Assembly (NCBI RefSeq): GCF_000695685.1
Contig: NZ_JFFR01000002.1
Location: forward strand, 310,001-374,000
Length of the DNA stretch: 64,000 nt
Direction: 5' to 3'
Source: Vibrio fortis
GTDB lineage: Bacteria > Pseudomonadota > Gammaproteobacteria > Enterobacterales > Vibrionaceae
Under the pieces are notes generated by a model that did not search any database, had not been told where the DNA came from, and saw only the letters and a program-made list of their open reading frames with translations. Both the position numbers and the translations under genes were made by a program. Below, in pieces: positions 35,922 to 50,611 of this stretch; within the stretch, counting starts at the first letter, position 1; every line of letters starts with the position of its first letter.

Positions 35922-37388
35922 ATGTCTCTTACCAGCCCAAATGTCACAAACAAGACTTTGAACTCCTTAACTCAATACCAAGCTTTCTCTGTTTTGGTGG
36001 TCGATGATGAGATAGGAATGCAGGCGATTTTGAAAAAGGCTCTGGGTAAACTGTTTGGTAAGGTGATGTGCGCAGGTTCAGTGGAAGAGGCGGAGACAAT
36101 CCGTAGCGCTGAACACTTTGATTTGATCGTTTTAGATATCAATCTACCCGGTCGCTCTGGTATTGAGTGGGAAGAAGCCTTTAACGATAACGAAAAACGC
36201 TCAGACGTTATCTTTATGACTGGCTACGCCGACCTAGAGATGACGATTTCCGCTCTTAAACTTGGTGCTTCCGACTTTATTTTAAAGCCGTTCAACCTCG
36301 AACAGATGATTCAAGCAGTGCTTCGCTGCATGGACAAGCGACTTGCACAACGCATGCAATATGCTTTGAAGCGTGACGTTAGTCGTCATATCAAAACCGA
36401 AATCATCGGTAATTCAGACAAAACTCGACTTCTGAAACAGCTGATTACTCAATTCGCACCATCACGAGCTTCAGTTCTAGTCGAAGGCGAATCGGGTACC
36501 GGTAAAGAGTTAGTGGCTCGCGGTGTTCACGAAGCGAGTAAAAGAACAGGGCCTTTTGTACCGATCAACTGTGGAGCAATTGCGCCAGAACTACTGGAAA
36601 GTGAACTGTTTGGTCACACGTCTGGCGCGTTTACCGGTGCGAAAAAGAATCGGGAGGGTCTATTTCGCGTCGCTAGTGGCGGCACACTGTTTCTTGATGA
36701 AATAGGGGAGATGCCACTGCCAATGCAAGCGGCGTTGCTTCGTGTTTTGGAACAACGAACAATTCGTCCTGTGGGTAGTGAAAAAGAGATCACGGTTGAT
36801 GTGCGCGTGGTCGCTGCTACTAACCGAAACCTGCAAGAAGAAGTAGAAAAGGGCAATTTCAGACGTGACCTATTTTATCGTTTAAATGTATTGAAGATCG
36901 ATGTTTCACCTCTTCGTGAACGTGTGTCGGACCTGATGGATCTTGTCCCTTACTTCACACGCATGCTAGCCCACGAATTGGGTATGCCAGAACCAACTTG
37001 GGCACATGAAGATATTCTCGCGATGAACGAATATCAGTGGCCGGGCAATATCCGCGAACTCAAAAACTTGATGGAGCGTTGTATTCTGCTTGGTAAACCA
37101 CCTGCACACTATTGGCGTGAGTTAAATGGTGAGAGCAATGTACCAACTCGAGTATCTGTGACGGTGTCACATGGTTCAGAGCTTCCAGGGATGGACCCGA
37201 ATGACGCGGCAGAAGGCTATCCAAATAGCTGGACACTCAAAGAGGTGGAGAAGGCACATATTGAACAAGTCGTCTCTTATCACGATGGGAACAAGTCGGC
37301 AGCAGCCCGTGACTTAGGTGTTGCGCGTAAAACCCTAGAGCGTAAGTACAAAGATTGGAATGCAGAGGGATCAGAATATGCCGACTAG
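35922..37388 (+). CDS. Sigma-54-dependent response regulator next to tungstate and formate genes
   Basis: This is a 488-residue NtrC-family regulator. The receiver domain has D28/D29 and phospho-acceptor Asp72 ([10 protein letters not shown]). The AAA+ domain has GESGTGKE and GAFTGA. The C-terminal Fis-type HTH ([21 protein letters not shown]) binds DNA. The in-frame TTG at 35856 is rejected for the ATG at 35922. Its 3' end overlaps the sensor kinase by 11 bp. It is the best candidate to bind the 17-bp dyads next to the sigma-54 promoters of tupA, fdhD, DUF3305 and the fdh operon. Homologous regulator pairs lie beside formate dehydrogenase genes in other vibrios, to my knowledge without a settled signal. 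Confidence 0.9.
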
Positions 37389-39408
37389 TCGCCACTGGTG
37401 GGCAAAATGGAGTTTTCGATTCAAGACGATGGTTCGCTATCGTCTTCTGTTTTTGACCTCTGCGCCGATCATCCTCACTCTTTGTGCTTTAATCGCTATC
37501 ACGCTTTACTGGTCAGTGCATTATACCTGGCAAGGTGCATTGATTGATGTTGATGAGCGCTTAGACGTTGCTGACAACAGTATCCACCTTATTCAAAACC
37601 AACAGGCCTACAACGTTAGAGCGTTTTCAGAATCTTACCGTTTTAGAAACAAACTACAGAGTGATATCGCTGAAGAACAACTTATACAATGGGTTTCGGA
37701 CAATAAAGCTCGTTACGAGCTCGACTTCTTACGCTGGCACAGCGCTCAATCTGTCCAAAACACCAGTGAACTTCTTGAACTCACTCGTAAGCAATCCTTT
37801 TTTAGCGTGCTAACACGCAGTCAGCTTGACGAATTAGATCGAACTTTAGCCAAAAGAGCAGAAGTACCGCTGCTTACAGGCACAGAGATTGAAACTCGTG
37901 GCTTAGTCAGTCGCACCGTTATCGCTATCTACGACAGAGACAACCGTGTTGTTGGCTTCCTAGATGGCGGTATTCTTCTCAATAACAGTACTCAGCTTGT
38001 TGATCAGATCAGTAACCTTATCTATCCAAGGCGTGAAGGATTCTCTCGCCGGGTTGGTACTGTGACCGTCTTTTTGGATGATCTACGTGTCAGCACCAAT
38101 GTACCGCTCAATAGTGATGCAAGTGAAGGACGAGCGATAGGTACCCGAGTTTCTCATGAAGTGCACTCCAAAGTGTTAAACCGAGGAGAAGAGTGGCTTG
38201 ATCGCGCGTATGTTTACGATGCGTGGTACATCACCGCCTATCAACCAATTCGCGATCAACATGAACAGGTGATTGGTATGCTTTATACCGGTTATCTGAT
38301 TTGGCCGCTGATTGAAACTTACTTGACTAATCTTGGTGAGATAAGCATAACCATCGTCGCATTGTTATTGCTATCCGGCTTTATTGTTCATCGTGGTGCG
38401 CGGGATCTATTTAACCCGATTGAGCGCATTCACAAAGTGGTGAAATTAGTTCAGATGGGACAAGACAAACGAATCGGTACCTTGGGACTGGATGATCAGC
38501 ACGAGCTGACTCAGCTTGCCAAGCAGTTCGATAAGATGCTGGATCTTCTGCACGAGCGCAATCAAGAGATCCAACAAGCCGCGCTAGAGCTAGAGTGCAA
38601 GGTTCATTCTCGTACCGCTAGCTTGAAAGAGAAAACGGAGCAGCTTGAACACCACATTACCTTGCTTAACCAAGCTCGAGACAAATTGGTGGTCAATGAA
38701 AAGCTTGCTGCGCTTGGTGAGCTTACGGCTGGTATCGCTCACGAGATTAACAACCCAACGGCTGTGATTCTTGGAAACGTCGAGCTCATGAAGTTTGAAC
38801 TGGGCGACGATACCGATCGCGTCAATGAAGAGATCCAAGCGATCATGGAGCAGATCGACCGAATCCGAAACATCACACGTAGCTTGTTGCAATACAGTCG
38901 TCATGGTGGAGTACAAGACGAGGTTACTTGGCAGCACATCAACCCAATCGTTGATGAGAGTATTACTCTGGTGAAAACCGGCGCTAAAAAGAAAGGTATC
39001 GTGTATCACTCTTCTCTTGATGCGAAAACTTCTGTTGAAGTAAACCGAAACCAGCTACTACAAATCTTGGTTAATCTTCAAATGAACGCGATCCACGCGA
39101 TGGATGGAGAAGGGAACCTGACCATCTCTAGTGAAGACTGGATTGAAGAAGGTGTAGTGCAGGGCGCTGTGATTCATGTTGAAGACGAAGGCTGTGGTAT
39201 TAAAGAAGAGCAGTTGAAGCGCATCTTCTCACCGTTTTATACCACCAAGCGCGATGGTACTGGCTTAGGTTTATCAGTCTCGCAGAGTATTCTCTCTCAA
39301 ACTGGTGGTGAAATTCGTGTTGAATCTGAATTAGGTAAAGGCAGCCGTTTCAGCGTCTATCTACCTAAGAAAGCAGCGCCACAATTGCTGGTTTCTAACG
39401 TTAACTAA
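37378..39408 (+). CDS. Cache-type sensor histidine kinase, partner of the upstream regulator
   Basis: This is a 676-residue kinase with TM1 (about 24-50), a 280-residue periplasmic domain consistent with a double-Cache fold, TM2 (about 325-343), a HAMP region, a coiled coil (about 385-435), and an HisKA-type H-box AALGELTAGIAHEINNPTA with the phosphorylated His. The ATPase domain has N (LQMNAIHAMDG), G1 (EDEGCGI) and G2 (GTGLGLSVSQS) boxes. The start at 37378 has AGAGGGA upstream and overlaps the regulator by 11 bp. The Cache domain suggests a small extracellular ligand; formate is an inference from context. Confidence 0.9.
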   Translation: MPTSRHWWAKWSFRFKTMVRYRLLFLTSAPIILTLCALIAITLYWSVHYTWQGALIDVDERLDVADNSIHLIQNQQAYNVRAFSESYRFRNKLQSDIAEEQLIQWVSDNKARYELDFLRWHSAQSVQNTSELLELTRKQSFFSVLTRSQLDELDRTLAKRAEVPLLTGTEIETRGLVSRTVIAIYDRDNRVVGFLDGGILLNNSTQLVDQISNLIYPRREGFSRRVGTVTVFLDDLRVSTNVPLNSDASEGRAIGTRVSHEVHSKVLNRGEEWLDRAYVYDAWYITAYQPIRDQHEQVIGMLYTGYLIWPLIETYLTNLGEISITIVALLLLSGFIVHRGARDLFNPIERIHKVVKLVQMGQDKRIGTLGLDDQHELTQLAKQFDKMLDLLHERNQEIQQAALELECKVHSRTASLKEKTEQLEHHITLLNQARDKLVVNEKLAALGELTAGIAHEINNPTAVILGNVELMKFELGDDTDRVNEEIQAIMEQIDRIRNITRSLLQYSRHGGVQDEVTWQHINPIVDESITLVKTGAKKKGIVYHSSLDAKTSVEVNRNQLLQILVNLQMNAIHAMDGEGNLTISSEDWIEEGVVQGAVIHVEDEGCGIKEEQLKRIFSPFYTTKRDGTGLGLSVSQSILSQTGGEIRVESELGKGSRFSVYLPKKAAPQLLVSNVN

Positions 39409-40591: not shown

Positions 40592-42211
40592 ATGAAATTA
40601 AGCAACCTTTCTATCAAATCTAAACTCGCCTCAATTGTCATATTTTCAGTGGTCTCGCTGATTATGGCATGTACGTACAATTTGCTTCAGCAGCGTGCCA
40701 CTTCAATGGCCGAACGAGAAAGTAAACTCAGTGCGCAAGTCGAATCCGCCGTATCGCTAGCTAAACATTATTATGGTCAACGTGCCGTGTTGGGTGAGCA
40801 ACAAGCACAACAGCAAGCATTAGCTGCGATTCAAAACCTACGTTACGACGGTAACAACTACTTTTGGATTCTTAACCAGCAATCACAAGTCGTGATGCAC
40901 CCGTTAAAACCTGAACTGAATGGTGAGAATACTCATAACTTCAAAGACGGCGCGGGTAAGTTCCACTGGCGTGAAATGGTTTCTATCTCACGCTCTCCGC
41001 AAGGTAAGGGTTTTCTTGATTACCAATGGAAAAGTCCTCAAGGGGAGCTGAAAGATAAGATCTCTTATGTTGAACTGTTTCCTGAGTGGAACTGGATCGT
41101 AGGTTCAGGAATCTTAGTTGCAGATATTCAAGAAGCATTCTGGGCGCTAGCGATAAAAGAGGCTTTGGTAGCCTTTGTCCTGTCAGGGATGCTGTTTGGG
41201 ATGGGTTATGCCATTTCTAACAACATTTTGATTCCATTGGCCAAGTTGATTAACAACACTAATGCCATCGCTGATGGTGACTTGCGCGTTCGCATGAACA
41301 TGACGCGTAAAGATGAACTGGGTGAAATGTCTCAGCAGATCGATAAGATGTTAGAGAAACTACAAAGCACGCTTAAGACTGCCAATGAATCAGCAGGGCA
41401 ATCTAGTTCAATGGCGAGTCATATTGCTCAAGCCAGTGAAGAAGCGGCAACCAGTGTTAACTCTCAACACGCACAACTTGAGTTGTTATCAACCGCTATG
41501 ACAGAGATGAGTGCAACCATTTCTGACGTGGCAGTAAATGCAGAAAACACGGCAGTGAGTACAAATAAAGTGGTTGATCATGCGTATCGTAATGACGAAA
41601 ACATGAAGGTAACAGCGACAAGCATCTCTCACGTGTCTGATAATATTTCGAATGCGAACAGTTTGGTTCAAGATCTACAAGCAGGCGTAACTGAAATCAG
41701 CCAAGTAGTAGGGGTTATCCGAGATGTTTCGGAGCAAACTAACTTGTTGGCTCTGAACGCAGCTATTGAAGCAGCGCGAGCGGGTGAACAAGGGCGTGGA
41801 TTTGCTGTGGTTGCCGACGAAGTACGTAACCTTGCAAGCCGCACACAGAACTCGACCAACGAAGTGCAACACACGATTGAGAAGCTCACTCAACAGGCAG
41901 AGCAAACCTTCGTCGCGATGAAGCAAAGCAATGAAGAGGTTGATCATAGTGTGAAAGCGTCTGACGATACTCGAGCTCAATTGGATGAAATCGTGGCAGA
42001 GCTGCAAAATGCTAACGATATGGTGGCACAAATTGCTGCAGCTTCAGAACAGCAAAGTTCAGTGGCGACAGAAATGAACCAGAACGTATCTAGCATTCAT
42101 TTAGCAGCAAACGAAGTGCTTCAAGCATCTCAATCACTCGCTGAAGATAGCCAACAGATGGCGAACACTGCAGAACACCTAACTGAGCAGCTGAAATACT
42201 TCAAAGTGTAA
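40592..42211 (+). CDS. Methyl-accepting chemotaxis protein with single Cache domain
   Basis: This is a 539-residue receptor: TM1 (about 12-28), a periplasmic sCache-type domain (about 35-185) with [23 protein letters not shown] and [14 protein letters not shown]2 (about 190-208), HAMP, and the signalling tip [32 protein letters not shown] (about 385-415; two parts). Such Cache domains often bind small carboxylates, but the ligand is unknown. Confidence 0.92.
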
Positions 42212-42233: not shown

Positions 42234-42265
42234 AAGCCCTCGTTTCAAATGAAACGAGGGCTTTT
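42234..42265 (+). terminator. Terminator after the Cache chemoreceptor
   Basis: AAGCCCTCGTTTC, loop AAAT, GAAACGAGGGCTTTTTG. A-rich on the left, so it may also serve the convergent mscS gene. Confidence 0.9.
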
Positions 42266-42286: not shown

Positions 42287-43180
42287 TTAGCTTGAAGCCA
42301 AAGCTATCTTTGGCGGTTTGATGCCGTGCTTTTTGAACTCTTTCATCACTCTTAAGGTAATGTCGGTTTCAAACAACTTCTCATAAGCCGTATCAACAAC
42401 ATAAGCTTTGCAGGTTAATTGAATGGCTAAGTAGTTGTCAGTGATGGTTTGTTTAACGAGCACTGTGACTGGCTTTGGCAGGTGAATGTAACGACTTGAC
42501 GATGCAGCCTCTTGAATTAAATCGCGGGCTAGGGTGATGTCTTCATCCATTCCTACATAGAAAGGAATCACGACCTGCATATCGAGAGCGCCATAGTTCC
42601 CGCTGGTCGTTACTTCATTTAGAAACTTATTGTTAGGTATCGTGATGATATCGTCGTTGAGGGTTCTCATACGCACTGAACGTAAGCCGATGGTAATGAT
42701 GTCGCCGTAATTCCCCTCAAACGTAACACGGTCGCCCACTTGAAACGGTCTGTCTATCATCACGGTTAAACCCGCTATAAACGACGCCGCAAGGTCTTTC
42801 AATGCGAAACCTACGGAGACAGCGAGCGTACCGCCAATCAACGCCAGGATATGATCGTTAATTCGAAAGCTCATCATAAAGACGACCAGACCAGCTGACA
42901 TATAGATGAAGAACTGGAGGAAAGACTGAACCTTTTGTAGCACCATTCGGTACTGAACAAACTGCCCACCAATGCTCTCGACCATCGAGTTCATAAACTT
43001 GATCAGTAACCATGTTGCCGCGATAACTAGGATTGAGAAGAAGACACCACTCCAACGAATCAGGCTAGCAAACTGTTGGATGCTCTCAACGTTAACCACT
43101 TCTTCTGCGGCAATTGCCAGTTGAGATTGCAGCAACAGTGTCAGTAAGGCGATGCCTAGTATTTTAGAGATTCTAATCAT
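42287..43180 (-). CDS. MscS-family mechanosensitive channel
   Basis: This is a 297-residue protein with a signal-like N-terminus (1-25), three membrane helices (about 38-62, 90-110 and 113-146) and the MscS pore helix (SVGFALKDLAASFIAGL). The beta domain (FQVGDRVTFEGNYGDIITIGLRSVRMR) follows. It lies one base after the stop of an 801-residue membrane P-loop protein, and the two must act together or be co-regulated. Ordinary MscS stands alone; pairing with an ATPase-like protein is unusual. Confidence 0.92.
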   Translation of the reverse strand: MIRISKILGIALLTLLLQSQLAIAAEEVVNVESIQQFASLIRWSGVFFSILVIAATWLLIKFMNSMVESIGGQFVQYRMVLQKVQSFLQFFIYMSAGLVVFMMSFRINDHILALIGGTLAVSVGFALKDLAASFIAGLTVMIDRPFQVGDRVTFEGNYGDIITIGLRSVRMRTLNDDIITIPNNKFLNEVTTSGNYGALDMQVVIPFYVGMDEDITLARDLIQEAASSSRYIHLPKPVTVLVKQTITDNYLAIQLTCKAYVVDTAYEKLFETDITLRVMKEFKKHGIKPPKIALASS

Positions 43181-43181
43181 A

Positions 43182-45587
43182 TTACTTCACCAATAAATGC
43201 TGTCTGTCTAACACATTGGTAATGTGTCTGAACCAGTGATCTGAGATTTTGGCTTTGTCTTCTGTCCATTCGATATAGCCTCGGCTTTGGAAGTAGCGCA
43301 GCGTCCCAGTCACTTCGGAGATAGTAAGTTGTGTACATTCAGAGAGCTCTTCTGGTGTCGCAATCTCCAATTGAACAATAGAGCGTAATACTGCCAACAT
43401 GGGTTTTGGCATCTTCTCAAGCTCTTCCGATTCGGGAGCATGGAACAGCCTCACCAACACTTGTTCGGTCTCTTTATTTCGATTTAACGAGAAACGGAAG
43501 AACCTCAATGCAACGGTCGGGTTTCCGTCAGAGTAGTGCCATAGGATTCGATAGAAACCTTGCTTAGCCCGTTCCTCTTCACTGATGTCTTGTTGGTCCC
43601 ACTGTTTCGGTACCACTAATCCGTCAAAGCTCACTGTGTATTCGTCTGATTGGTTGATGCGCGTATTGAGCAGTGACGCTATTTGTATTTCATTCCATTT
43701 AGGCAGAAAGGCGACCCAGTCAAATAGAAGTCTTTCTCCTCGCGCTCGATCGACAAATCGCCAACTTGCTTTCTCAATTGAGATGATTGCACGGTGATTT
43801 TTCTTGGAACGTCGAATGAGATTAGTTAAACGGATAAGCGCTGATAAACCACCAACCATAGGCTTCACTAATCTCTGTCCATTATCGACAGCAATTAAGT
43901 AGGTGGTTTGGCTGCCTCGAAGCTGACTCAGTATCTGTATTTCCGTGGCGTTTTCATCAAGCCCAATACTCACAGCAAAACGAGCCAGCAGCTCTTGATA
44001 GCCAGAGTGAGGGCAATTGAGGTAAACAGGCTCTGCATTTTTTACTTTATGCAGCATCTGTTTTAAAAAGGTCGTAGTGCCCACGCCACGCTCTCCTGAG
44101 ACAACACATAAAGCAGGAGAGTCGGTCAGTAGATATTTAGAGAGTTGTTTGATTTCGGCATCAGCATACTCAATTAATTCGCTGTCATGATTTCCTGGCA
44201 ACACATAATCAAAGGCAGCATCGCCTTTAACGCGAACTAAAGCGTGGCCATCTGCAGTGTTGTTTTTCTGCTTAGCGACCTCAATTCGAAACAAATAGGC
44301 GAGGGCTTGACTGAAAAAGGTAAAGTGCGAAAGCTTTGAGATTAATCGATGTTTAGCAATATGTACTATGACCCAAGCTGCTGCCATCGCGGTTGCAATG
44401 ATACTGATGACCCAGATCCGCTTTTTGCTGATTGCCCAATTGACCCACCAAGGACGATCAGCAATGTTCTCCACCATTTCAAACACAGTGTCGCGCCACA
44501 GCCTCAATACTGAAATGGTAATAAGAACAAACCAGAAGAAAAGCACGCTGTATATCCAGTTGTAGATGGTGCCTTTACCAAGTGTCATGGTTGAAATTTG
44601 CAAGATCACACCAGCAATAATCCCGCTCCATACATAACGACGAATGGTCGACAGTCGCAGTTCAACAATATCTTGACTAGAAGATCGGCTATTTCGGTAA
44701 GCGAACTCCAAAATGAAACTGATCGCGATAGAGCCGCCGAGAATCCACCAGGTAAATATCTCAAGAAAGACGACATGCTGAAGACTTGGAATGGTCGATA
44801 GGACTTGCAAGGATAGGGTTATCGCTATCAACCAAGCGATGGCTTTGTGAGCGCGGCTAAAATACCAAATGATGCGAACCCATAGCGGCGGAGTATTGGT
44901 TTTTTCTAGAACTGTGTTTTTATACAGTTCTATTATTCTCGTGCTATTGGTAAGCCACCACATGAGTACGCTATAAATGAAAAATATTTTGATACCAGCC
45001 CAAACGACAGGCACAGGTGAAACAAAGATATCTTCTATCAACGCGCGAAAACTGCGTAACTGAAAGTAAAACAGGTATTCGGCATTAAGCAGCGTTAACT
45101 GCCACTCTTGTTTTAGCTGCCTAACTCCTTGCGGACCAAATCCAATGAGCTTGTCACGAGTGGCACTATCAGCAAGCTCAAGTAACTTTTGCTTGCTGCT
45201 ATTGATACTGCTTAGGGTTAAATAATCAGACTTAACCTTGAACCATATGTCATCGCTCGCTTTCGATTTAACATCGGGTTCTTCATCGGATTTAAGGTTA
45301 TCGATAAACTGGGAAAGATGCAGTGCGAACTGATCGCTCTGTTTTTGTTGTTCGATAAGTACGACTCTTAATAACTGAGACGCTTTGCGTTGATCCTGAG
45401 CCGACATAAATAGCGGCTCGGGTAGAGTTTGAACCTCATTATTGATGCTCACAGCGGTTTCACTAACGCTGGGGGTGACTTCCTGTTCGTATTGCCATTG
45501 TGCAGCACTACTAAATGAAACCATTGCTACCCACAGTAACCAAATATGCCGAGCGCATATCAGTGATAATTGGCGCATAAACTTCAC
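43182..45587 (-). CDS. Large membrane protein with degenerate P-loop domain, paired with MscS
   Basis: I do not recognise a named family. This is an 801-residue protein with a signal peptide (about 1-28) and a charged periplasmic helical region (about 30-190). About six membrane segments lie between 195 and 410. A cytoplasmic STAND/AAA-like domain follows, with a P-loop VSGERGVGTTTFLKQ near 495-508, in which the Walker Lys is Thr (codon ACT), and a sensor-like IAVDNGQRL near 560. The C-terminal part (about 690-800) looks like a winged helix (EELSECTQLTISEVTGTLRYFQSRGYIEW). It is one base from mscS. Possibly it senses nucleotide or DNA and gates the channel; this is speculation. Confidence 0.8.
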   Translation of the reverse strand: MKFMRQLSLICARHIWLLWVAMVSFSSAAQWQYEQEVTPSVSETAVSINNEVQTLPEPLFMSAQDQRKASQLLRVVLIEQQKQSDQFALHLSQFIDNLKSDEEPDVKSKASDDIWFKVKSDYLTLSSINSSKQKLLELADSATRDKLIGFGPQGVRQLKQEWQLTLLNAEYLFYFQLRSFRALIEDIFVSPVPVVWAGIKIFFIYSVLMWWLTNSTRIIELYKNTVLEKTNTPPLWVRIIWYFSRAHKAIAWLIAITLSLQVLSTIPSLQHVVFLEIFTWWILGGSIAISFILEFAYRNSRSSSQDIVELRLSTIRRYVWSGIIAGVILQISTMTLGKGTIYNWIYSVLFFWFVLITISVLRLWRDTVFEMVENIADRPWWVNWAISKKRIWVISIIATAMAAAWVIVHIAKHRLISKLSHFTFFSQALAYLFRIEVAKQKNNTADGHALVRVKGDAAFDYVLPGNHDSELIEYADAEIKQLSKYLLTDSPALCVVSGERGVGTTTFLKQMLHKVKNAEPVYLNCPHSGYQELLARFAVSIGLDENATEIQILSQLRGSQTTYLIAVDNGQRLVKPMVGGLSALIRLTNLIRRSKKNHRAIISIEKASWRFVDRARGERLLFDWVAFLPKWNEIQIASLLNTRINQSDEYTVSFDGLVVPKQWDQQDISEEERAKQGFYRILWHYSDGNPTVALRFFRFSLNRNKETEQVLVRLFHAPESEELEKMPKPMLAVLRSIVQLEIATPEELSECTQLTISEVTGTLRYFQSRGYIEWTEDKAKISDHWFRHITNVLDRQHLLVK

Positions 45588-45876: not shown

Positions 45877-47469
45877 TTGATTTCCACAGCAAATATCACC
45901 CAACAATTCGGCGCGAAGCCACTTTTCGAAAATATTTCAGTGAAGTTCGGCGAAGGTAACCGTTACGGTCTAATCGGCGCGAATGGCTGTGGTAAGTCGA
46001 CGTTCATGAAAATCCTTTCAGGTGAACTAGAGCCAAGCGCAGGTAACGTAAGCTACGATCCAAACGAGCGCGTGGCTAAGCTAAACCAAGACCAATTCGC
46101 GTACGAAGAGTTCTCTGTAATCGACACGGTTATCATGGGCCATAAAGAACTATGGGCTGTGAAGCAAGAGCGTGACCGTATTTACTCGCTACCAGAAATG
46201 AGCGAAGAAGACGGCATGAAAGTGGCTGACCTAGAAGTTCAGTTCGCAGAGATGGATGGTTACATGGCAGAAGCGAAAGCGGGTGAGCTTCTTCTAGCGG
46301 TTGGTATCGAAGAATCTCTTCACTTTGGCCTAATGAGCGAGGTTGCTCCAGGTTGGAAACTTCGTGTTCTTCTAGCACAAGTTCTGTTCGCAGACCCGCA
46401 TATCATGCTTCTAGACGAACCAACGAACAACTTGGACATGGACACTATCCGCTGGTTGGAAGAGACACTAAACCAACGTAACTGCACAATGATCATCATT
46501 TCGCACGACCGTCACTTCCTAAACTCTGTATGTACTCACATGGCTGACCTTGATTACGGTGAGCTACGCGTTTACCCAGGTAACTACGATGAATACATGA
46601 CGGCAGCGACACAAGCTCGTGAGCGTCTACTGTCTGACAACGCGAAGAAGAAAGCGCAAATTGCTGAACTTCAAACGTTCGTATCTCGTTTCTCTGCTAA
46701 CGCATCTAAAGCTAAGCAAGCAACGTCTCGTGCTAAACAGATCGATAAGATTCAGCTAGAAGAAGTTAAAGCATCTAGCCGTCAAAACCCGTTCATCCGT
46801 TTCGAACAGTCTAAAGAGCTATTCCGTAACGCGCTTGTGGTTGAAAACCTATCTCAAGGTTTTGAAGAAGACCTATACAACAAGTTCGACGCGATCTTCG
46901 AGGTGGGCGAGCGTGTTGCAATCATTGGTGAGAACGGTGTTGGTAAAACAACCCTACTAAACACACTTGCTGGTGTACTAGAAGCGCGTACAGGTGAATA
47001 CAAGTGGTCTGAGAACGCGAACATCGGTTACTACGCTCAAGACCATGCTCATGACTTTGAAGAAGACATGAACCTATTCGATTGGATGAGCCAATGGCGT
47101 CAAGAAGGCGAAGATGAGCAAGTCGTACGTAGCTTCTTAGGTCGTATGCTATTTGGCCAAGACGACATTAAGAAGTCAGTTAAGGTTATCTCTGGTGGTG
47201 AACAAGGTCGTATGCTTCTTGGTAAGATCATGATGCATAAGCCAAACATCCTGCTAATGGATGAACCAACGAACCACATGGATATGGAATCTATCGAAGC
47301 ACTTAACCTTGCGCTTGAGAACTACAAAGGCACACTGTTCTTCGTTTCTCACGACCGTGTATTCGTAGACTCACTAGCAACACGTATCCTAGAGATCAAA
47401 GATGGTCAGATCCATGACTTCCGTGGTACTTACGCTGAGTTCCTAAAAGCGCGTGGCATCGACGGTTAA
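45877..47469 (+). CDS. ybiT: ABC-F family ATPase YbiT
   Basis: This is a 530-residue protein with two soluble ABC domains joined by a linker (about 240-310, [20 protein letters not shown] region) and no membrane segments. Walker A motifs are GANGCGKS and GENGVGKT; Walker B motifs are [12 protein letters not shown] and [12 protein letters not shown]. Length and sequence match E. coli YbiT, a ribosome-associated translation factor of the EttA group. The start is TTG at 45877 with AAGG 8-9 nt upstream, aligning with the YbiT N-terminus. Codon usage is highly biased, suggesting strong expression. Confidence 0.93.
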
Positions 47470-49771: not shown

Positions 49772-50611
49772 TTATTCGCCGTCTTGGTTGCCTTTAACAT
49801 CAAAGATAATCTTATCGGCACCTGTAAAGACTTGGAAGCGTAAACCTTTAGCACGAGCAATCGTAGTGATGCCAAACTTCTGAGCTAAGTCTAAGCCCAT
49901 TTGCGTAACACCTGAACGAGAGAGCAACACTGGAATGCCCATTTGAGCTACCTTAATCACCATTTCAGACGTCAAACGGCCAGTGGTATAGAAGATTTTG
50001 TCTGAGCCATCTTCCTGATTCAGCCACATTTCACCTGCCAGCGTATCTACTGCGTTGTGACGACCGACATCTTCAACGAAAGAGAGTACTTGATCGTCTT
50101 TGCACACGGCACAGCCATGGACAGCACCTGCTTTTTTATAGGTGTCGTTATAGTGAGTTAACGCTTCAAGAGCCGTGTAGATTTCTGATTGCTTAAGCTT
50201 GGTTTGAGGCACTTGGTAATTTTCCAGCTGCTTCATTACGTTGCCGTACATAGTGCCTTGACCACAACCTGAGGTTACGGTTTTCTTTTTAAGCGCACTT
50301 TCTAACTGGCTTGTATCTTCTTTCGTTACAACCGCCGCTGAACTGGTTTCCCAATCAATGATGATTGATTCAATCGCTTCAGGGTCTGAAAGGAAGCTTT
50401 GGTTCTTCAAATAACCTAAGACTAATGATTCAGGACGTGAGCCCAAAGTCATCAGGGTCACGATCTCTTTCCAGTTAAGCATAACGGTTAGAGGACGTTC
50501 GCAAGCAATCTGTTTTGTTAGCTTTTCGCCATACTCGTCGAACACTTCCACTTCAATGGTTTGTAGAGGGTTTTCACTGGTTTTAATAATGTTTGGTTTA
50601 ACCACTTTCAT
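49772..50611 (-). CDS. fdhD: Formate dehydrogenase accessory sulfurtransferase FdhD
   Basis: This is a 279-residue FdhD. E. coli FdhD carries sulfur from IscS to the molybdenum cofactor of formate dehydrogenase, using a CxxC loop. Here the loop reads TSGCGQGTMYG: Cys116 is kept and the second Cys position is Gly119. A second HGCAVC motif (about 165-170) and FVEDVGRHNAVDTLAGEM are typical. It is divergent from DUF3305 and has a sigma-54 promoter of its own, so it belongs to the fdh regulon. Confidence 0.93.
   Translation of the reverse strand: MKVVKPNIIKTSENPLQTIEVEVFDEYGEKLTKQIACERPLTVMLNWKEIVTLMTLGSRPESLVLGYLKNQSFLSDPEAIESIIIDWETSSAAVVTKEDTSQLESALKKKTVTSGCGQGTMYGNVMKQLENYQVPQTKLKQSEIYTALEALTHYNDTYKKAGAVHGCAVCKDDQVLSFVEDVGRHNAVDTLAGEMWLNQEDGSDKIFYTTGRLTSEMVIKVAQMGIPVLLSRSGVTQMGLDLAQKFGITTIARAKGLRFQVFTGADKIIFDVKGNQDGE

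Follow-up and report, generated by a model that had tools for sequence, protein, structure and literature searches.

The window, that is, the whole stretch of 64,000 nucleotides of Vibrio fortis DNA analysed here (contig NZ_JFFR01000002.1, positions 310,001 to 374,000), contains on its reverse strand two adjacent genes that encode a channel of the MscS family and a large membrane protein with a domain related to nucleoside triphosphatases (NTPases). The large gene (43182..45587, GTG start) codes for an 801-residue protein, which the list of open reading frames (ORFs), Pfam and the homologues point to as a membrane-anchored, AAA/STAND-derived partner of the channel. The mscS gene (42287..43180) lies downstream of it and codes for a 297-residue channel assigned by Pfam and trees to a distinct MscS subfamily. 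Only one base (43181) separates the two ORFs, and the Pfam domains PF00924 (62.8 bits, cut-off 20.2) and PF21082 (33.1, cut-off 21) were both detected in the 297-residue protein, confirming the initial annotation, in which an MscS gene had been described one base away from an 801-residue gene.

The genome around the pair (5.29 Mb) carries the large gene in single copy and eight MscS-domain matches, the paired channel among them. The named relatives at this locus belong to Vibrio, and the large protein of the nearest one is 91% identical. As matches to the large protein were found in 83 of 197 Vibrionaceae genomes, in 3 of 13 genera, the large gene is not a chance ORF.

Pairing of the two genes in Vibrionaceae

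When the coordinates were compared, this MscS was found downstream and on the same strand of all 85 full-length large genes of the Vibrionaceae, and the large gene or a remnant of it was located upstream of all 90 MscS genes of this kind. The channel was detected at E ≤ 1e-40 in 82 of the 197 genomes, and seven genomes carried two complete pairs each. One genome (G058) had a match to the large gene without this MscS, and what was present there was only a remnant of the large gene; wherever a full-length partner was seen in the genomes examined, the channel was present too. The spacing was exactly one base in 27 of the 33 Vibrio loci in which both genes were read, and one of the six other values (-88) reflects the start codon chosen. 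The pairing of the large gene with this MscS is close to obligate. The proposal that the channel has a multi-domain membrane partner of its own was borne out by the adjacency counts, and it also withstood a search for homologues occurring widely without mscS.

Both drafts of V. maritimus (L042 and L043) showed a broken frame in the large gene, by draft errors or by real decay, and these loci were excluded from the alignments.

The pair and soluble partners in other lineages

In a sample of the class (369 genomes), the large protein was found in the V. fortis genome itself and in two distant genomes, both with an MscS gene directly downstream and a canonical Walker A motif; searches of the orders of these two (11 and 5 genomes) added no members. 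The pair was also present on two plasmids from Novosphingobium and a third from Caulobacter. Directly behind the pair on the Caulobacter plasmid lies another MscS gene (L050 10966-11901), which is very different and falls outside the paired branch of channels, and two more MscS-like genes were observed on opposite strands within 3 kb after the pair in another genome (G641, L071 10678-14484).

An ATPase profile detected 15 genomes in a sample of the phylum (398 genomes), with the channel gene directly downstream in all of them; one of the 15 (G879) codes for a soluble partner of 415 residues only. When a phylum sample of 398 genomes drawn in the same way was searched with a profile of the channel, 23 genomes were found at E ≤ 1e-32, these 15 and eight more. 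Directly upstream of the channel, each of the eight carried an ORF of 307-417 residues related to the C-terminal core of the partner, and none of the eight ORFs showed a hydropathy segment above the membrane threshold or an intact P-loop. Against the core profile, in a search confined to those few loci, one ORF matched at E 7e-78, five matched at E values between 6e-12 and 7e-9, and two at 1.6e-5 and 1e-4. The seven weaker ones were backed by profile-profile comparison (probabilities 98.8 and 96.4), with a mild bias because the sub-alignments compared were taken from a single joint one. A Pfam scan of seven of the eight soluble proteins revealed nothing above the curated cut-offs. In one genome (G561, L141 7609-8756), the soluble partner is split into frames of 307 and 86 residues when compared with that of G864, and the channel frame is open.

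As a control, the core profile was run around 33 MscS loci of other branches. The sequence available ahead of the MscS frame was at least 300 bases long in 29 of them, at least 850 in 25 and shorter than 300 in 4 (three of these had none). A single weak match of 15.4 bits was obtained; it was rejected as a partner because it reads as the P-loop of an ABC transporter. The C-terminal core persists beside the channel when the membrane part and the P-loop are gone.

A separate branch of MscS channels

The channels linked to a partner were compared in trees with 34 unlinked ones, comprising E. coli MscS, the additional channel of the Caulobacter plasmid, the seven other channels of the V. fortis genome and 25 channels of eight distant genomes. 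Those eight genomes gave 44 unlinked MscS matches, of which 26 were taken as loci; 25 of them entered the trees and 26 the neighbourhood control. In the first tree, the 15 linked channels were all on one side of a branch, with the 34 others, including E. coli MscS, on the other side (99/98). After the addition of seven of the eight new channels, 22 linked channels were still separated from the 34 (97/97). The channel of G942 (L142) is absent from this second tree and from the column counts, which hence cover 22 of 23, and L030 and L099 were left outside the trees.

Linked and unlinked channels differ at several columns. The column of E. coli Asn117 is occupied by Ser in 19 of the 22 linked channels and by Asn in 29 of the 34 unlinked ones; the column of Asn167 retains Asn in 17 of the 22. 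One paper (PMC6174206) reports that the contact between Asn117 and Asn167 stabilises the inactivated state of E. coli MscS. The Ser at the Asn117 column hints that the linked channels may differ in the inactivation contact of the pore itself. One signature column, initially numbered as E. coli Gly168, was discarded under that name, as the numbering gives Gly160.

The linked channels thus resemble E. coli MscS and its relatives in passing both Pfam MscS domain cut-offs and in aligning through transmembrane helix 3 (TM3) and the cage domain, and differ from them by their separate branch, by the Ser at the Asn117 column and by the partner gene directly upstream.

Domains of the large protein

The large protein begins with a signal-peptide-like N-terminus (residues 1-29, 45501..45587), with a hydropathy peak at 7-25 and a similar pattern in the orthologues, followed by a helical, probably periplasmic part (residues 30-186, 45030..45500) whose secondary structure was taken from a low-confidence model. 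The membrane part (residues 187-411, 44355..45029) contains six clear helices, as judged from the mean hydropathy of 7 and of 12 homologues. With the mean of the 7 Vibrio homologues, six peaks with scores of 1.58-2.10 were located at 192-210, 249-267, 275-293, 319-337, 345-363 and 391-409, and a seventh, weak one (1.04) at 415-433; in the window protein by itself, the 319-337 peak stays below 1.6.

The rest of the protein comprises an AAA_22/STAND-like NTPase core (residues 470-600, 43788..44180), identified by Pfam and family matches, and a C-terminal part with a lid and a winged-helix-like region (residues 601-801, 43185..43787), identified by alignment and a profile match. Within the core, a degenerate Walker A motif, GERGVGTTT, with Thr in place of the Lys (residues 498-506, 44070..44096), was read from the sequence and the family alignment. 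In the Walker B region (residues 562-569, 43881..43904), Asp568 is shared by all 13 diverse members and followed by a residue that is not conserved. The C-terminal part carries a GNP motif, present in 12 of 13 family rows and replaced by GHP in the remaining one; a winged helix after a GxP-type motif is a STAND trait.

The lid and winged helix form the best-conserved region of the Vibrio large protein: mean identity to the window protein over seven Vibrio rows was 0.81 for this region, compared to 0.71 for the NTPase core, 0.66 for the membrane part and 0.47 for the periplasmic part. A winged-helix nature is suggested by a weak Pfam match of the window protein to HTH_34 (E 0.036, under the cut-off) and by matches of positions 280-349 of the family profile to solved AspA chains (E 0.0011 and 0.0024), which we take to be winged-helix proteins. 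The domain order initially described, from the signal-peptide-like start through the helical part and six helices to an AAA/STAND-like domain with the Walker Lys changed to Thr, was thus recovered, the winged helix being the weaker element. Structure predictions were poor, with a mean predicted local distance difference test (pLDDT) score of 40 for the full protein and 46 for the C-terminal part, each from an input of four sequences.

Relationship to NTPases and loss of the Walker lysine

AAA_22 was detected in the window protein above its Pfam cut-off (30.1 vs 27) and was matched at E ≤ 0.01 by 12 of 13 family members. When the family profile was compared with solved structures, Clp-type ATPases gave the best matches (E 2.7e-9), followed by Cdc6, NB-ARC and Avs4 chains. 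A search of solved structures with the large protein by phmmer gave no match. The label STAND is a reading from the AAA_22/AAA_16 matches, the GNP motif and the C-terminal domain.

In all 85 full-length large genes of the Vibrionaceae the Walker A Lys is replaced, by Thr in 51, Ala in 23, Ser in 9 and Val in 2, and the motif GERGxGxT is otherwise retained in all 85 (GERG, third Gly and final Thr). Among 13 diverse aligned partners, the Lys is kept in nine and absent in those of the window, V. mediterranei, G718 and G879. The first three of these form one branch of the channel tree, a pattern that points to at least two separate losses. The best reading of these substitutions is that NTPase chemistry is dispensable for the partner of this MscS subfamily.

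The large protein thus shares with STAND, AAA_22 and Orc1-Cdc6-like NTPases the AAA_22 and Cdc6/NB-ARC/Avs4/Clp profile matches and, more tentatively, a GNP motif with a winged-helix-like end. It differs from them in being joined to a membrane part or encoded as a separate soluble protein next to MscS, in having lost the Walker Lys or the entire P-loop in several lineages, and in that Pfam detected no repeat domain in it.

Decay of the partner gene

Five loci (G053, G094, the second copy of G069, G128 and G147) combine a broken or reduced partner with an open channel frame, which is at odds with a toxic pore kept shut by a guard. The channel of G094 showed a pairwise ratio of non-synonymous to synonymous substitutions (dN/dS) of about 0.01 with its nearest relative, a value that also averages the time before the loss of the partner. 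The partner remnant in this genome is 78% identical to the window protein over 58 residues.

The second large-gene copy of G069 is apparently split, with a probable 5' part (L078 4678-5391) about 84 kb from the 3' part (L079 3897-5549) and in opposite orientation. Each part lies near copies of one 296-residue ORF, which is transposase-like by its repetition. The split resembles an inversion between two copies of a mobile element, and the channel beside the 3' part is intact.

Genomic setting

A near-palindromic, terminator-like hairpin of 30 bases with 13 pairs, followed by T (42234..42263), lies between mscS and the gene convergent with the pair, and might terminate both. A promoter scan returned two sites, fewer than the 6.6 of shuffled sequence, and an Rfam scan of the window gave no family at the cut-off. 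Judged from their sequences without a family search, the neighbouring genes encode a chemotaxis receptor convergent with the pair (40592-42211), a sensor kinase (37360-39408) and, on the side of the large gene, a divergently oriented ABC-F protein (45877-47469) and FdhD (49772-50611).

In six other Vibrio loci, some of which end early, the ABC-F gene adjoins the large gene in all six, the kinase lies on the other side in five and FdhD is present in four. These neighbours were absent or only distantly similar in L068, from another genus of the family, and in L075, L070 and L072, from three further lineages. Therefore, the place of the pair is fixed within Vibrio and different elsewhere; the gene-neighbourhood comparison proposed with the initial annotation revealed a pair that is kept when its surroundings change.

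Discussion

The large protein probably serves one distinct MscS subfamily as its dedicated regulatory subunit, and the two genes would then encode one channel complex. The MscS protein would be the pore of this complex, and the large protein, a descendant of a STAND/Orc-like NTPase, would regulate it. In Vibrio, the signal would enter through the periplasmic part and the membrane part of the large protein, by which the state of the membrane or envelope would be sensed, and the cytoplasmic lid and winged helix would contact the cytoplasmic cage of the channel and set the opening of the pore or its open duration. What accompanies this channel throughout is the core made of lid and winged helix, with the membrane sensor and the nucleotide chemistry as optional parts, as would be expected for a subunit that touches the channel from the cytoplasm. 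ATP turnover would be unneeded in Vibrionaceae and in lineages with P-loop-less partners, and nucleotide control may be added in those retaining the Walker Lys. A stress-gated system is possible. More tentatively, and with less confidence than in the complex itself, the pair could be regarded as a two-protein mechanosensitive channel in which gating of the MscS pore falls to a STAND-derived subunit with optional catalysis and the pore lacks control of its own open time, a signal from the membrane or periplasm and in some lineages ATP deciding on turgor release; the switch would have been kept for its C-terminal core, its chemistry and/or membrane sensor being repeatedly discarded.

Several points weigh against a regulatory subunit. 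With six helices behind an exported N-terminus, the NTPase domain would come to lie outside the cell, so the predicted helix count fails to place it in the cytoplasm; a seventh or half helix was probably missed by hydropathy, which is assumed because soluble members of the family exist. Channel and partner show only a weak correlation of their distance matrices (Mantel r 0.29, a value reached by 218 of 10000 permutations). STAND is not singled out by sequence alone, as the best solved matches are Clp-type ATPases, and the pLDDT scores of the structure models are low. Regarding the soluble partners, the homology of the upstream ORFs of G658 and G788 leans mainly on the profile-profile result from one joint alignment. 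The breaks in G128 and G147 could be frameshifts of draft sequences and, as the G094 remnant is still so similar to the window protein, the loss there may be recent and the surviving channels perhaps relics. What the data show is adjacency that is nearly obligate, a common branch for the paired channels, replacement of the Walker Lys and persistence of the C-terminal core; physical contact, the gating role and the identity of the signal are inferred.

STAND-type NTPases are known defence sensors, and the large protein might alternatively sense infection and open the channel to stop or kill the cell. This is consistent with the match of the family profile to the solved defence protein Avs4 at the P-loop region (E 1.7e-4), with the presence of the pair on plasmids in alphaproteobacteria, in one of which a nearby helicase gene has PADLOC matches (best E 1.9e-13), and with the sole PADLOC match of the window protein, a weak one to the candidate defence family PDC-S27 (E 0.00028, residues 478-556), one of five relatives being also weakly matched at the P-loop. 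However, PADLOC gave no match for four of six partners, weak P-loop matches for the other two and none for two channels, and it gave no match of the partner to a described defence family over the length of that family. A tblastn search of phage records with the window protein found nothing, the neighbourhood is conserved within Vibrio, the catalytic Lys or the whole P-loop is lost as described, and the channel is retained where the partner is broken. Defence is therefore improbable, and the response to infection or nucleotide signals that had been suggested at first is left unsupported by the same conserved synteny, absent or weak PADLOC matches, missing Lys and intact channels. The CoCoNuT paper (PMC11090510) offered an unrelated passage only, and the BREX paper (PMC12839542) no occurrence.

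An assembly or quality-control factor, in which an AAA-derived protein would assist the folding, insertion, assembly or localisation of the channel and have no part in its gating, would suit the Clp ATPases as top solved matches and the strict pairing with the partner gene first. It is unlikely, if somewhat less so than defence, as powered remodelling is not expected where the Walker Lys (Vibrionaceae) or the P-loop (soluble partners) is absent, channel genes outlast the partner, one of them at the low dN/dS given above with its averaging over the time before loss, and a large variable periplasmic domain is better suited to a sensor. As adjacency alone is no proof of contact, the genes might also be transcribed together for proteins that never touch and fill related osmotic roles independently, a view with slightly less to recommend it than defence: the pairing recurs across Gamma- and Alphaproteobacteria in different surroundings, and the partner, membrane-bound or soluble, adjoins this channel branch in all examined loci except the broken ones. 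Least probable of all is a membrane-bound transcription factor whose winged helix binds DNA, the channel being merely its target or neighbour. The HTH_34 and AspA matches of the C-terminus are in its favour, but even in distant lineages the C-terminal core stays with a single channel subfamily, and in STAND/Orc-type proteins the winged helix commonly belongs to the switch or its scaffold.

As a regulatory subunit, the large protein can be compared with two known arrangements. MscK/MscM-type channels also have a large periplasmic part and extra membrane helices ahead of the pore; here, the sensor part is in a separate protein with an NTPase domain. The N-terminal half was rejected as a relative of MscK, as hhalign gave a probability of 1.2 against the MscK-like protein of the V. 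fortis genome (781 residues compared). SUR1-Kir6.2 is a channel with an ATPase-family regulatory subunit, and by analogy an NTPase-fold protein would set the state of a separate pore here too; the families are unrelated and, in the present case, the channel is of the MscS type and the chemistry would be dispensable. No recognisable description of an MscS channel with a partner of STAND or AAA origin was present among the matches listed in the open-licence literature, in line with the initial statement that no equivalent is described, and the relevant part of a paper on Halomonas elongata describes four channels and mentions no partner gene (PMC7174268). Both the MscS family and the NTPase superfamily have been described before; the pair and its decay series appear to be new.

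The comparison also gives an identity to proteins encoded upstream of mscS in other lineages, where Pfam had no match above cut-off for the seven scanned. The lineages with an intact switch, a switch without the Lys, a soluble partner without P-loop or a lost partner constitute a natural experiment. MscS channels are the classic example of channels gated solely by membrane tension; a branch of the family encoded with a dedicated partner suggests that some of its members are controlled by a second protein.

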